This document shows, in pieces, positions 52,387 through 61,669 of a DNA stretch of 64,000 nucleotides. Each line of letters begins with the position of its first letter. Position 1 is the stretch's first letter. Made by a program: the position numbers and the translations under genes. The DNA is from Gammaproteobacteria bacterium. GTDB taxonomy: Bacteria; Pseudomonadota; Gammaproteobacteria; Xanthomonadales; Wenzhouxiangellaceae. The stretch is from positions 1-64,000 of the forward strand of contig JAHJQV010000004.1 in the NCBI GenBank assembly GCA_018819105.1, in the 5' to 3' direction. Below the pieces are notes generated by a model, which was not told the origin of the DNA, ran no database searches, and saw only the letters and a list, made by a program, of their open reading frames with translations.

Positions 52387-53373
52387 TCAGCCTTCCTGAC
52401 GCAGACCCACAAAGGTGCCGCCATTTTGTGCCGTCAGTTCGCGCATCAGCACAGCAAAGCTGATGCCGCTGTTGCTGACGCCGCGCGGCAGATACTGCGA
52501 TGGAAAGCCGATGGCATGAATGCGCACCGATGGTTTGCCATCCGGGCCTTTCGGATTGAGCATGGCAACCCGATCCAACACCGGTTGCAGCGTGCTGCCA
52601 CCAAATTCGTCACCAAACACATAAATGCTGAAGGACTCGCTGCGGCGAGCAAACATGCGCATGGCCGATTCGATGCCCTCCACTGGTGACGAGTTGGAAA
52701 ATGGCTGCCACAGGCGCAGACGCTCGATCACCTGCTGGCGCAGCACCGGGGTGTCCGGGATCCACTGCCCGGCGTACTGCTGGAACATCAACTCGCCCAT
52801 GTCGTTCATGATCTGGATGCCGCGCACGCGCGGGTACACCGACAGCACCTCCTCCACCTTGCGCACCACCGCAGGCCAGATGCGCTGCATGCTGCCGGAA
52901 GTATCGATGATGAAAACGATGTGCTCACTGTCGATGGGAATGCCACCGATGGCATCGTCACGGCGTTCACTGGATTGCTGCAGTCGGCGCATTTCCTCGG
53001 TCAGGGACTGTCGCGCTTGCGCCAGTCGCTCGCTGACTGTACTCAGGGCACGCTGATCCAGTGCCCGCTCGCCCTGCTCGCTGGCCTGTGGCCGCAGCGC
53101 CTGCAGGCGCTTTTGCATGGCTTGTTTTTCCGCCTCGATCTCGGCCAGGTATGCCTGCTTGCTGGCGATGTCCTGCTGGATCGCAGGTATTTCCAGCGCC
53201 AATTGCTGCGCGCGCTGCTGCAACTGATCGCGCGCTTCGGTTTCACGCACCGGCTCAGCGGTCTTGGTGATCACCAGCAGCATGACAATGGCACCAAAGC
53301 CGGAACTGATGACGTCCAGAAACGACAGCAGGTTGGCCTGCAGACCACTTTTGCGCCGCTTCAGTATCGCCAT
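52387..53373 (-). CDS. von Willebrand A protein with MotB/TolR-like N-terminal helix (vWA-2)
   Basis: 328 residues. A basic start is followed by L-L-S-F-L-D-V-I-S-S-G-F-G-A-I-V-M-L-L-V-I, a membrane helix with Asp20 where MotB, TolR and ExbD have the protonatable aspartate. A coiled coil occupies about 42-138. The vWA domain from 150 has an intact metal site, I-I-D-T-S-G-S (Asp157, Ser159, Ser161). The periplasmic vWA takes the place of an OmpA-like domain. Last gene of the cluster, 19 bases after vWA-1. Confidence 0.85.
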   Translation of the reverse strand: MAILKRRKSGLQANLLSFLDVISSGFGAIVMLLVITKTAEPVRETEARDQLQQRAQQLALEIPAIQQDIASKQAYLAEIEAEKQAMQKRLQALRPQASEQGERALDQRALSTVSERLAQARQSLTEEMRRLQQSSERRDDAIGGIPIDSEHIVFIIDTSGSMQRIWPAVVRKVEEVLSVYPRVRGIQIMNDMGELMFQQYAGQWIPDTPVLRQQVIERLRLWQPFSNSSPVEGIESAMRMFARRSESFSIYVFGDEFGGSTLQPVLDRVAMLNPKGPDGKPSVRIHAIGFPSQYLPRGVSNSGISFAVLMRELTAQNGGTFVGLRQEG

Positions 53374-53392
53374 GATTGACTCACTGTCTGTT

Positions 53393-54466
53393 TCATGGCC
53401 AATCGTCCGGTGGTGACAGCAGCACGCCGCCGGTCAGTTGCGACAGCTGCCAGAAAGCACTGGCAGCAAACGGATCGCCCTCCATCGGCAACAGTATCGT
53501 GTTCACCGGCACCACCCTGGGCACCACCCGGATTGCCTCGCTGAACATGGTGAGACGGCGCCGGGAACTGACCAGACCCTGCTCATTGGCCATCAGCCCC
53601 TGGGTTGGCAGGCCATCGGTGATCAGGTAGATGTTGTCGGTGCGCGGGGTGATCGCAGCGGTGGCAGCGAAGGCTCGATACAGGCTGGTGCCCGAACCTG
53701 GCACCACCTGACGCAATGCTGCCAGCGCCTGGGTCAGGCCCGGTTCACCGGTCACCTTGAGCCAGGTACCGGTGGTGTCGGGCAGCACCGAGCGGGTTTC
53801 ATTGTTGAACAGGTAGATCTGGAAACTGGACTCGCGCGGTATCTGCGCCGCCAGCCACTCCACCGTGGCCAGCGTGCGCTGCCATTTTGGTGCGGCGCGA
53901 CGATCGTCGTCGGACATGTTGCGCCGGCGAATGGTGCCGACAATGGTCGGATCCAGCATGCTGGCCGAGGCATCGACCAGAAACAGAATGCGGCTGCCGC
54001 TGATCTTCAACCCGGTCAGATACTGCCGGTCACCGTCATCCAGTCGCTCAATATTGGCGTTGTTGTCCTGGCTGCGGGCCTGCTCGCGCAGGTTTGCGAC
54101 CCGCTGCTCCAGCGCGCTGACCTCCTGTTGCAGGGATTTGACTCTGGCACGCTGCGCGGCCAGTTCTGGCGCTGGCGGCGCGTCGTCTTCCAACTGCTGC
54201 GACAGGCGGTCAATGGCGGCGCGCATGCCTGCCAGCTCGGCCTCAGTGTCGCGGATGGCCTGGCCGAGTTCGTCGGCCTGGTACTGGAATTCGATATGGC
54301 GTGCCTGCTGCTCGCCCACCGACGCCTGCAGCTCGGCGTAGGATTCCTGCGAGCGCTGTTCGCTGGCATGATTGATGATCAGAAACAGCAGGATGACCGA
54401 CCCCAGTCCGACCGACATGACATCCAGGAAGGACAGGCTGAAAGTCAGTTCTTCGCGCCTTGCCAT
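53393..54466 (-). CDS. von Willebrand A protein with MotB/TolR-like N-terminal helix (vWA-1)
   Basis: 357 residues. It starts with the same plan as vWA-2: basic tip, then L-S-F-L-D-V-M-S-V-G-L-G-S-V-I-L-L-F-L-I with Asp15. A long coiled coil spans 35-135. The vWA domain from 157 has the metal site V-D-A-S-A-S (Asp165, Ser167, Ser169). A later threonine/aspartate pair, I-T-D-G-L-P, completes the fold. Outside the helix and fold it is not closely similar to vWA-2, so the two may form a heterodimer under the channel protein. Confidence 0.85.
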   Translation of the reverse strand: MARREELTFSLSFLDVMSVGLGSVILLFLIINHASEQRSQESYAELQASVGEQQARHIEFQYQADELGQAIRDTEAELAGMRAAIDRLSQQLEDDAPPAPELAAQRARVKSLQQEVSALEQRVANLREQARSQDNNANIERLDDGDRQYLTGLKISGSRILFLVDASASMLDPTIVGTIRRRNMSDDDRRAAPKWQRTLATVEWLAAQIPRESSFQIYLFNNETRSVLPDTTGTWLKVTGEPGLTQALAALRQVVPGSGTSLYRAFAATAAITPRTDNIYLITDGLPTQGLMANEQGLVSSRRRLTMFSEAIRVVPRVVPVNTILLPMEGDPFAASAFWQLSQLTGGVLLSPPDDWP

Positions 54467-54480
54467 GGCCGCAGGCTCGC

Positions 54481-60197: not shown

Positions 60198-60214
60198 GCA
60201 AAGACGCCGTCGAG

Positions 60215-60244
60215 CCCGCGCAGAGTTATCCCGCGCAGAGTTAT
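60215..60244. repeat. perfect 15-bp tandem duplication
   Basis: cccgcgcagagttat occurs twice in a row at 60215-60229 and 60230-60244, just upstream of the lipoprotein start at 60197. In the long reading frame it would encode N-S-A-R-D/A twice. It is a recent slip or a small regulatory repeat. Confidence 0.85.
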
Positions 60245-60316
60245 TCAGGGCCCCCCTAACCCAGGTCAGTGAACGGTGGACAGGCAGATGCATGGGCAAT
60301 GATCCAGCCTCAGCTC

Positions 60317-61669
60317 TCAGCGCCGGGCGTTCTTGTATTGGCGATACTCTTCCCACAGTTTCTCACGCAATTCCGGGTCAGATTCGCTTTCGGCAGCCTC
60401 ACGCAACTGGCGCGCGACAATGTCGTCATCGGCCCCGCCCGGAATGCCCGGCGGGGTTGGATAGCGCGCCGTGTTGTTGCCATTGCCAATGGATCCCACG
60501 CCAGACTCGCCGGTATTGACGGCACGGCCGGTTTCTGCACTGTCCTCATCCAGCGACAGTCCGGCACCGCCAATGCCTGCGCCACCGCCTGCGCGACCGG
60601 ATTGTGAGCCAGCAACCGCAGCGCTGGCGTTGGCGCGGCGCAGATCGGCGTCAAAACTCTGCAGCGCCTGCAGATAACGCTGGTCGAGACCGGATTGCAT
60701 CGCCTTCGCCTGATTCGTCTGGCGTTGATTGTTCTGGCCCTGAGCGGCTGCTGTCTGTCCTGCCTCCAGCATCGCGGCATTGCCAGCCATGGCTGCCGCT
60801 GCCGCCTGCTCGGCACGCGCCTGCATGGCGGCACTGACACCGGGTGTGGCGGCAGCCTGTTGTGCCGACTGCGCGGCAGCCTGCGCCGCCGCCCGAGCCG
60901 CATTCGCCGCCTGCTGCGCCGCCGCTGCCAATGTCTGATTCTGCTGCTGATGCGCGCTGCTGGCTGCGCCCTGTTCGGCTGCGGCAAGCTGTGCTGCTCT
61001 GGCTGCAGCCAGTTCCGCCGCGATTTGCGCCGCCTGGGAGGCAGCATCGGCGCGTGCTGCCTGTTCAACAGTCGCTGTCAGTGCCTGCGCCATTGCCTGC
61101 TGTCGGGCAGCAGCCTCGGCCTGGGCACTGTTCTGCGTGGTAGCCATTGCTTGCGCAGACGACTGTTCGTCAGGCGTTGGCTCAGCAGTCATCTGCTCGG
61201 CGCTAGCGCGCTGCTGTGCAACGGCTGCCTGCAGTTCAGCCAGCGCTTGTGCCGCCGCAGCGCTGGCGGCCTCTGCCGCAGCGGCGGCCTGCTCGGCGGC
61301 GGTGGCCTGCTGCTGCAGGCTGGCGGGATCTGCCTGCTGCTGCTGCTGCTGCTGCTGCTGTTGCTGTTGCTGCTGTTGCTGTTGCTGTTGTTGCTGTTGT
61401 TGCTGTTGTTGTTGCTGTTGTTGCTGTTGTTGCTGTTGTTGCTGTTGTTGCTGCTGTTGCTGGGGTTGCTGCTGTGCTTGCGGTAGCGGCAACGGCACGC
61501 TCAAGGACATTTCCGGCTTTTTTTCTTCCTGCTGCGGTTGCTGCTGCTCCGGTTTCGGTTCCGGCTTGATCACGGTCTGCTTTTCACCCTGACAGGCAGC
61601 CAGCAGAAGCATCGGCAACAATGCGGCGCATCGCAGAAAATTGGCTTGTTTTGATGATGAATGAAACAT
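60317..61669 (-). CDS. lipoprotein with 43-residue polyglutamine tract
   Basis: 450 residues from ATG 61669, with CAGGA just upstream. The signal ends L-L-L-A-A-C-Q (lipobox). A Lys/Glu/Gln/Pro stretch leads to 43 consecutive Gln codons (61334-61462), mixing CAA and CAG. Then come ~220 residues of nearly pure Ala/Gln helix, likely a coiled coil, and a compact end with Gly-rich and acidic parts ending W-E-E-Y-R-Q-Y-K-N. It is first in the vWA cluster. The tract must be slippage-prone. Family unknown; it may span the periplasm. Confidence 0.75.
   Translation of the reverse strand: MFHSSSKQANFLRCAALLPMLLLAACQGEKQTVIKPEPKPEQQQPQQEEKKPEMSLSVPLPLPQAQQQPQQQQQQQQQQQQQQQQQQQQQQQQQQQQQQQQQQQQQQQQQQQADPASLQQQATAAEQAAAAAEAASAAAAQALAELQAAVAQQRASAEQMTAEPTPDEQSSAQAMATTQNSAQAEAAARQQAMAQALTATVEQAARADAASQAAQIAAELAAARAAQLAAAEQGAASSAHQQQNQTLAAAAQQAANAARAAAQAAAQSAQQAAATPGVSAAMQARAEQAAAAAMAGNAAMLEAGQTAAAQGQNNQRQTNQAKAMQSGLDQRYLQALQSFDADLRRANASAAVAGSQSGRAGGGAGIGGAGLSLDEDSAETGRAVNTGESGVGSIGNGNNTARYPTPPGIPGGADDDIVARQLREAAESESDPELREKLWEEYRQYKNARR
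61334..61462. repeat. CTG/TTG triplet repeat (polyGln on the minus strand)
   Basis: 43 triplets in a row, a mixture of CTG and TTG on the plus strand with GTTGTTGCT-like subrepeats. It encodes glutamines of the lipoprotein at 60317-61669. Mixed codons reduce but do not remove the chance of length change. Confidence 0.95.

Follow-up and report, generated by a model that had tools for sequence, protein, structure and literature searches.

The analysed window, a stretch of 64,000 nucleotides from the start of contig JAHJQV010000004.1 (assembly GCA_018819105.1, a gammaproteobacterium of the Wenzhouxiangellaceae), is part of a 3.14-Mb draft genome with a completeness of 98.7%, and its positions 52387-61669 are filled by eight minus-strand open reading frames (ORFs) that form a real conserved unit. 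We lean, with somewhat more belief than doubt, towards the view that this operon encodes a force-generating envelope machine, in which an ion-driven 5:2 motor would act on outer-membrane lipoproteins. In transcription order, the genes encode lipoprotein 1, lipoprotein 2, a PEGA/SUMF membrane protein, a small protein, a channel protein, an Hsp70-like protein and two proteins with vWA domains (vWA1 and vWA2). An earlier reading made from the letters alone (hereafter, the sequence-only reading) had described eight same-strand genes overlapping or nearly touching, and the ORF coordinates bore this out: four junctions overlap by 4, 4, 1 and 4 bases, gaps of 14 and 19 bases lie upstream of vWA1 and vWA2, and the longest gap, 119 bases given the GTG start chosen for lipoprotein 2, separates the two lipoprotein genes.

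Genome contigs were scanned with the channel protein and 57 loci were obtained, nearly all of them from gammaproteobacteria and two from Acidobacteriota bins (L066 and L086); the gene families in these loci were marked by profiles built from the same 57 loci. In each of the 50 loci that extend 4 kb or more past the channel gene, both vWA1 and vWA2 were present, and 46 of them also had the Hsp70-like gene; in the remaining four (L081-L084) the channel gene directly adjoins vWA1. Among the 46 loci with at least 7.5 kb before the channel gene, the small protein was found in 45 (exception, L032), and the PEGA/SUMF protein, lipoprotein 1 and lipoprotein 2 in 45 each (exception, L062). The full eight-gene set was present in 38 of the 43 loci covered on both sides, with identical order and strand in all 38. 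Since dozens of genomes retain this order, the operon arrangement is not due to chance, and the phylogenetic profiles that the sequence-only reading had named as its check turned out in its favour, as the genes do co-occur.

Channel orthologues (E-value of 7e-74 or better, the next best match being 5e-14) were found in 18 of the 151 genomes of the order, a count that includes the window. vWA1 was detected in 31 of the 369 sampled genomes of the class, and in 13 of 249 genomes of the phylum, of which eleven belong to a single family from a different class. In the phylum of the Thermoanaerobaculales bin, 2 of 247 genomes had it, the bin being one of the two. The class-wide vWA1 search yielded 30 loci (L088-L117), one of which is the window's own; 28 of the 30 carried vWA2 and 18 the Hsp70-like gene; in the other 12, a channel match stands beside the vWA genes with no Hsp70-like gene. 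Named carriers include Exilibacterium tricleocarpae, Simiduia aestuariiviva, Luminiphilus syltensis and Pseudoteredinibacter isoporae. Distances between six gene families were correlated (rho 0.58-0.84), a value which, having no control gene, was not used as proof. A phage- or plasmid-borne origin was rejected, given that vWA1 had no match in phages and the channel just three distant ones in plasmids.

The channel protein (55842-56669, 275 amino acids) matched the Pfam family MotA_ExbB (2e-14) and is thereby of the MotA/TolQ/ExbB type; its best NCBIfam match was TolQ, at 31.3 bits far below the cut-off of 221, and a profile search of solved structures brought up nothing for it at E up to 0.01. 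Thr198 and Thr231 were invariant in 44 of 44 sequences. Crude hydropathy gave an inconsistent 2 to 5 segments among channel relatives, and because these counts disagree no number of channel helices is claimed. Both vWA1 (53393-54466) and vWA2 (52387-53373) are composed of an N-terminal helix with an aspartate (Asp15 in SFLDVMSVGLGS and Asp20 in SFLDVISSGFGA, respectively), a coiled coil and a vWA domain. The helix aspartate was kept in 47 of 47 vWA1 and 43 of 44 vWA2 sequences, and in most relatives the two helices have the motif S-F-L-D-x3-C-G-x-G-A in common. DxSxS and the later Asp were invariant in both families; vWA1 has the complete metal ion-dependent adhesion site (MIDAS), with Thr260 kept in 46 of 47 sequences, and vWA2 has a Ser in place of this Thr. 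The vWA1 and vWA2 profiles could be aligned from the helix through the vWA domain (hhalign E 2.8e-24), a likeness that a duplicated axle would be expected to show. The Pfam family VWA_2 was matched weakly by the window's own vWA proteins (1e-4 and 0.0056, under the Pfam cut-off), and by 39 of the 47 vWA1 sequences, window included (best 6.4e-10).

In the window's genome, MotA_ExbB was matched seven times and ExbD five times; each of its six other channel genes shares a contig with an ExbD gene, and the window's contig (C40) has no ExbD. These results sustained the claims of the sequence-only reading about the core, namely a MotA/TolQ-type channel with two vWA partners, both of which start with an Asp-bearing helix and keep intact metal sites. 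No OmpA family was listed in Pfam for any of the eight proteins (for vWA1, among the 25 of 39 families shown, the list being complete at E up to 0.01 and without OmpA), and a flagellar stator was rejected because none was listed for the vWA proteins.

A motor core of this kind has already been predicted. The TPH-vWA motors, as presented in section 8 and other passages of PMC12204202 (Mol Biol Evol 2025, msaf138), combine a tolQ-like gene with a heterologous vWA pair, have a TolR/ExbD-like helix with a conserved Asp and a ring of Thr, lack tolR/exbD, are supported by AlphaFold3 models and have no known function. As far as those passages go, the operon is like them in having a tolQ-like gene beside vWA genes (50 of 50 loci), two different vWA genes, a conserved helix Asp (47/47 and 43/44) with conserved channel Thr (44/44), and no exbD beside it (five in the genome, none on the contig). 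The main text of PMC12204202 does not mention PEGA, sulfatase, formylglycine or Hsp70, and of the 22 places where it speaks of lipoproteins the 12 covered here deal with Tol-Pal. PMC12505986 treats, in part, transporters outside flagella, among them ones of unknown function that carry additional domains. A description of the eight-gene set was not found by title or abstract in the literature searched, which was made up of published papers, few of them behind subscriptions. Hence the statement of the sequence-only reading that no such system had been described fails for the core of channel and vWA pair, for which the same Asp/Thr argument stands in the main text of PMC12204202, and holds for the whole machine, which is undescribed so far as the literature searched shows.

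In the machine that we favour, five channel copies would make up an inner-membrane ring and a vWA1-vWA2 heterodimer would be the axle, its N-terminal helices carrying an ion-binding aspartate that would take the place of the one of ExbD, TolR or MotB in other 5:2 motors. This axle agrees with the models published for the motor type, as they appear in PMC12204202. A flow of ions, probably protons, would turn or tilt the axle, the coiled coils would pass this movement on to the periplasm, where the vWA heads might grip, via their metal sites, acidic segments of partners from the same operon; candidates are the conserved peptides at the C-termini of lipoprotein 1 and of the small protein, and the PEGA/SUMF stalk. 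In this way outer-membrane lipoproteins would come under force, with lipoprotein 1 as a flexible tether and lipoprotein 2 as a ring-type scaffold, and the pseudo-Hsp70/FHA-like protein would be a cytoplasmic regulator or gate rather than an ATPase. The analysis establishes which genes are present, their order and conservation, the key residues and the predicted folds of two of the proteins; the pentamer-plus-heterodimer assembly, ion coupling, localisation, partners and force direction are what we infer from these features. As to what is moved, envelope maintenance or the transport of surface components in the manner of Tol-Pal would be a first guess, and an adhesion-like role of the vWA domains is likewise a guess.

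To our knowledge, few ion-driven envelope motors are understood, namely flagellar stators, Ton, Tol, Gld and Agl. The operon places a predicted motor core that had no function assigned within a defined and conserved set of parts, comprising an outer-membrane side, a stalk and a cytoplasmic regulator, which makes function testable in the carrier strains named above. If the favoured reading is true, there would be a motor whose pull is transmitted by vWA contacts that depend on metal, and which has a dead Hsp70 as an accessory.

The Hsp70-like protein (54481-55845, GTG start) was modelled with AlphaFold2 from 51 sequences, with a predicted local distance difference test score (pLDDT) of 90.6. 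In this predicted model, residues 1-328 fit the nucleotide-binding domains of Hsp70 proteins such as DnaK, mortalin and Ssz1 (Z 28.2, root-mean-square deviation [rmsd] 2.9 over 314 residues; Foldseek E 2e-17). Hsp70 proteins bind phosphate through the motifs DLGTT and DLGGGT, the positions of which were matched by eye in the family. Asp10 and Asp155 were kept in 48 of 51 members each; none of the 51 had two glycines in columns 157-159 after Asp155, and none had Gly at 12 together with Thr at 13 or 14 in the first loop. The C-terminal region of the family profile matched solved chains of EssC (4.2e-4), Ki-67 (0.11 and 0.12) and KIF13B (0.43), all of which we take to be FHA domains, and the Pfam FHA family was matched by one of the 51 members (2.2e-11). 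The protein thus differs from Hsp70 both in its lost phosphate-loop glycines and in its FHA-like tail. An ATP-driven Hsp70 was rejected on account of the lost phosphate-loop residues, and since the gene is also absent from a sizeable share of the loci, ATPase action is unlikely. Judging from its residues, then, the protein is probably no ATPase and, because many relatives lack the gene, it is probably an accessory regulator. Of the 'ASKHA ATPase' proposed by the sequence-only reading, the Hsp70-like fold was recovered in the model and the ATPase action has become unlikely.

Systems related to the operon bear on a different explanation, a sensing or signalling device in which the SUMF/PEGA and vWA parts would read ion flow or envelope strain and signal to the cytoplasm via the pseudo-Hsp70/FHA-like protein, the motor-like core being a gated switch and no force generator. 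A further related channel was found in nineteen genomes of one family, f8 (E 5e-14 to 1.6e-12). In 12 of 12 short loci (L019-L030), this sister channel is flanked on one side by a gene similar to that of the FHA protein of locus L142 and on the other by a gene similar to that of its trypsin-FHA protein, and in 10 of the 12 a vWA gene lies in the flanking stretch; two loci, L141 (G007:C3) and L142 (G063:C25), were read over a greater length, and there a Ser/Thr kinase-SUMF protein follows. Among the sister loci the Pfam scan covered L142, where the trypsin match was weak (0.0076). The helix motif of the sister system is S-A-[IV]-D-L-F-A-S-A-x-G-A. SUMF, FHA, channel and vWA pair therefore recur together, with a kinase instead of PEGA repeats. 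The combination of kinase, FHA and protease is suggestive of a regulated response, either to stress or in cell fate. The FHA and trypsin-FHA-like flanks, the kinase-SUMF protein and a related channel that stands beside a PP2C phosphatase and a Ser/Thr kinase on a Rhizobium plasmid would all suit signalling; however, Pfam recognised neither kinase nor phosphatase in the eight-gene operon, FHA was matched by just that one Hsp70-like relative, and the Hsp70/FHA gene is missing from 4 of 50 loci of the channel scan and 12 of 30 of the class-wide vWA1 search, so that we regard a signalling device as doubtful.

The PEGA/SUMF protein (56917-58968, GTG start) has a single hydrophobic stretch near its N-terminus, four PEGA stretches (Pfam, 1.3e-41) and a C-terminal SUMF domain resembling the formylglycine-generating enzyme (FGE; FGE-sulfatase/SUMF, 2.6e-43), the two domain types that the sequence-only reading had recognised. 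FGE works with a catalytic cysteine pair, and here a correction is due, as alignment to FGE revealed that the SUMF domain lacks this pair; the sole column with Cys in at least 5 of the 51 sequences was Cys503 (48 of 51). An enzymatic SUMF was rejected on these residues. The type IX secretion system (GldKLMN/PorK) also joins an ion-driven motor to an FGE-fold partner, the best NCBIfam match of the SUMF protein was GldK, and PorK chains were among its PDB matches. The operon protein differs in falling below the GldK cut-off (114.9 versus 350 bits) and in having PEGA repeats and an N-terminal hydrophobic stretch, and no GldL or GldM model was listed in NCBIfam for the operon proteins.

Lipoprotein status and localisation were assigned from lipoboxes by eye. 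Lipoprotein 1 (60317-61669) has the lipobox LLLAAC, a long low-complexity linker and a conserved C-terminal peptide (DDDIVARQLREAA...REKLWEEYRQYK). Its total length ranged from 231 to 675 amino acids in 36 sequences, and that of the linker, rich in Ser, Gly, Ala, Pro and Gln, from 169 to 596 in the 27 of 36 that could be measured; the C-terminal peptide was present in 35 of 36, window included, and could also be seen by eye in farther relatives (L135, L136 and L138, and less so L140). Lipoprotein 1 is, on these sequence features, a probable outer-membrane-anchored tether of variable length with a conserved end. In the window, the linker includes a run of 43 Gln (61334-61462); the relatives examined had Ser-, Gly- or Pro-rich linkers. 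The small protein (56669-56920, GTG start) has hydrophobic residues at positions 3-24, and its C-terminal 22 residues are conserved across 55 sequences, window included (consensus FVPSEEISEDFAVPFPVDI).

A more specific and distinctly improbable version of the mechanism can be built on these conserved ends. The ion-driven vWA heterodimer would act as a periplasmic winch, gripping the acidic C-terminal peptide of the variable-length lipoprotein 1 via its metal sites and reeling it in, under the control of a dead Hsp70 with an FHA-like tail from the cytoplasm. Force would then be directed inwards along a rope belonging to the outer-membrane lipoprotein; TonB and TolA have the opposite arrangement, with the rope on the motor side. 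If this were true, the SFLD-helix channels, considered along with the related versions that have kinase/FHA, phosphatase or defence-island neighbours, would be a whole class of motors with swappable heads.

Lipoprotein 2 (58965-60197) consists of a FlgT/PelC/CsgG/TolB-N-like domain followed by a long helical hairpin. The nearest folds to its predicted model (pLDDT 82.3, about residues 30-190) were FlgT (Z 10.9, rmsd 4.3, 135 residues aligned), PelC (Z 10.1, rmsd 2.3, 111 aligned), CsgG (Z 9.4, rmsd 4.4, 135 aligned) and TolB (Z 9.1, rmsd 2.7, 102 aligned). Prolyl-tRNA synthetases came next, at Z 6.9 and below, which indicates that the fold is common and the likenesses are moderate, and at E up to 10 no solved structure was matched by the lipoprotein 2 profile. 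In its model, lipoprotein 2 accordingly bears a moderate resemblance to outer-membrane ring and Tol proteins.

Compared with many relatives, the window holds a reduced version of the machine, so that the eight-gene set of the sequence-only reading stands as a conserved unit and has to be corrected in its extent. More than 1.1 kb separate lipoprotein 2 from PEGA/SUMF in 48 of the 50 loci carrying both, and the twelve products from this gap that were aligned belong to one TPR family with a C-terminus that looked PEGA-like by eye; this TPR-PEGA gene is absent between the two genes in L031, L032 and the window. In clusters of flanking ORFs over the 57 loci, many of which are cut by contig ends, a third lipoprotein-like gene follows vWA2 in 38 loci and a fourth is present in 47 (upstream in one of them), an M48 peptidase-like gene, named by eye, comes after in 22, and a TPR protein with a TonB_C domain (2e-8 in L035, 8.7e-4 in L056) precedes lipoprotein 1 in 27, one cluster member being on the other side.

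Several of these parts would also fit an upkeep system of the outer membrane, Tol-Pal-like or handling lipoproteins, that would differ from Tol-Pal mainly by its axle. With Tol-Pal and ExbBD-TonB the operon shares a TolQ/ExbB-type channel with Thr, the N-terminal helix Asp, a TolB-N-like domain (in lipoprotein 2) and, in relatives, TonB_C; it differs from them by having vWA in place of the ExbD/TolR periplasmic domain, a PEGA/SUMF and an Hsp70/FHA-like protein, and no Pal or TolA was recognised. The further lipoprotein-like genes and the M48 peptidase-like gene of the 22 loci would suit upkeep too. However, since six channel genes besides this one and five ExbD genes are already present in the genome, such a system would be an addition, and the occurrence of vWA1 in only 31 of 369 sampled class genomes is unlike that of upkeep needed by all. 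We regard such an upkeep system, too, as doubtful.

Other observations speak against the force-generating machine that we favour, and they concern both its axle and its set of parts. One vWA2 relative (L073, 13191-14204) carries Ala at the helix Asp position, so that only vWA1 would bear an ion-binding residue there. VWA_2 was matched by only 6 of the 44 vWA2 sequences, window included (best 0.002), and the Pfam model VWA likewise by 6 of 44 (best 2.4e-4). Searched against solved structures at E up to 0.01, the vWA1 and vWA2 profiles found not a single vWA chain, their only matches being stretches in the coiled-coil part (five and one sequences). A profile of the vWA N-termini had no significant match to the four ExbD proteins of the genome, nor to a misread ORF (L151) searched with them, and the ExbD/TolR family PF02472 was absent from the families listed for vWA2 (nine, E up to 1) and vWA1 (five, E up to 0.01); the likeness of the vWA proteins to ExbD thus rests on position, Asp and context. 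As regards the set of parts, one locus (L062) has neither PEGA/SUMF nor either lipoprotein, and in two others (L104 and L108) the channel match comes after vWA2 instead of before the vWA genes. A second vWA1/vWA2 pair (L137, 7603-9728; G517:C4) has no recognisable channel gene within its 19-kb stretch, in a genome that has the operon elsewhere. Finally, neither lipoprotein 4 nor the TPR-PEGA protein was found in the window's genome (G000) or in genome G149, and G104, a relative of the same family, had a single TPR-PEGA match that was weak and partial (3.4e-4). Strong matches were obtained in three control genomes, of which three for lipoprotein 4 and two for TPR-PEGA had also supplied rows of the query alignment. 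These parts are consequently not essential, or the window's version is reduced.

Channels of this type also work outside flagella in Zorya (ZorAB), where the partner of the MotA/ExbB/TolQ channel has an OmpA-type peptidoglycan-binding domain, and an anti-phage system of the Zorya kind was considered as well. The operon channel matched ZorA models weakly (best 1.4e-4, residues 184-262; NCBIfam ZorA, 11.9 bits versus a cut-off of 500), and two related channels on cyanobacterial plasmids stand next to CRISPR III-B and viperin genes in one case and DNA methylase and helicase genes in the other. The operon differs from Zorya in that no OmpA-type domain was seen in it; no nuclease or helicase domain was seen either, no defence gene was recognised by eye in the 25 largest clusters of flanking ORFs, and vWA1 had no phage matches and the channel only its three distant plasmid matches. 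An anti-phage role is therefore very improbable.

A scan for promoters and terminators was not used as evidence: promoter-like sites numbered 2 against a shuffle mean of 2.3, and the 13 terminator-like sites (mean after shuffling 6.5, sd 2.4) had short stems and occurred on both strands. In L142, a CHAT-TPR gene adjoins the sister system. The cyanobacterial plasmid loci (L162, 9184-10358, and L163, 7081-8265) each consist of a channel of the MotA/TolQ/ExbB type and two small partner proteins. In L162, which is the one beside CRISPR III-B and viperin, one partner has a helix with SFLD and the other has FLSVLACTIG, with no Asp and a weak ExbD match (0.0036), and L163 is the one beside the methylase and helicase. 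Both channels could belong to a defence-associated motor. On the Rhizobium plasmid pRlBT01d (L164, 2892-9365), the related channel is accompanied by a helix-bearing partner (SVLDLFASALGG) with no Pfam match, and the Ser/Thr kinase next to the PP2C phosphatase carries PDZ domains.

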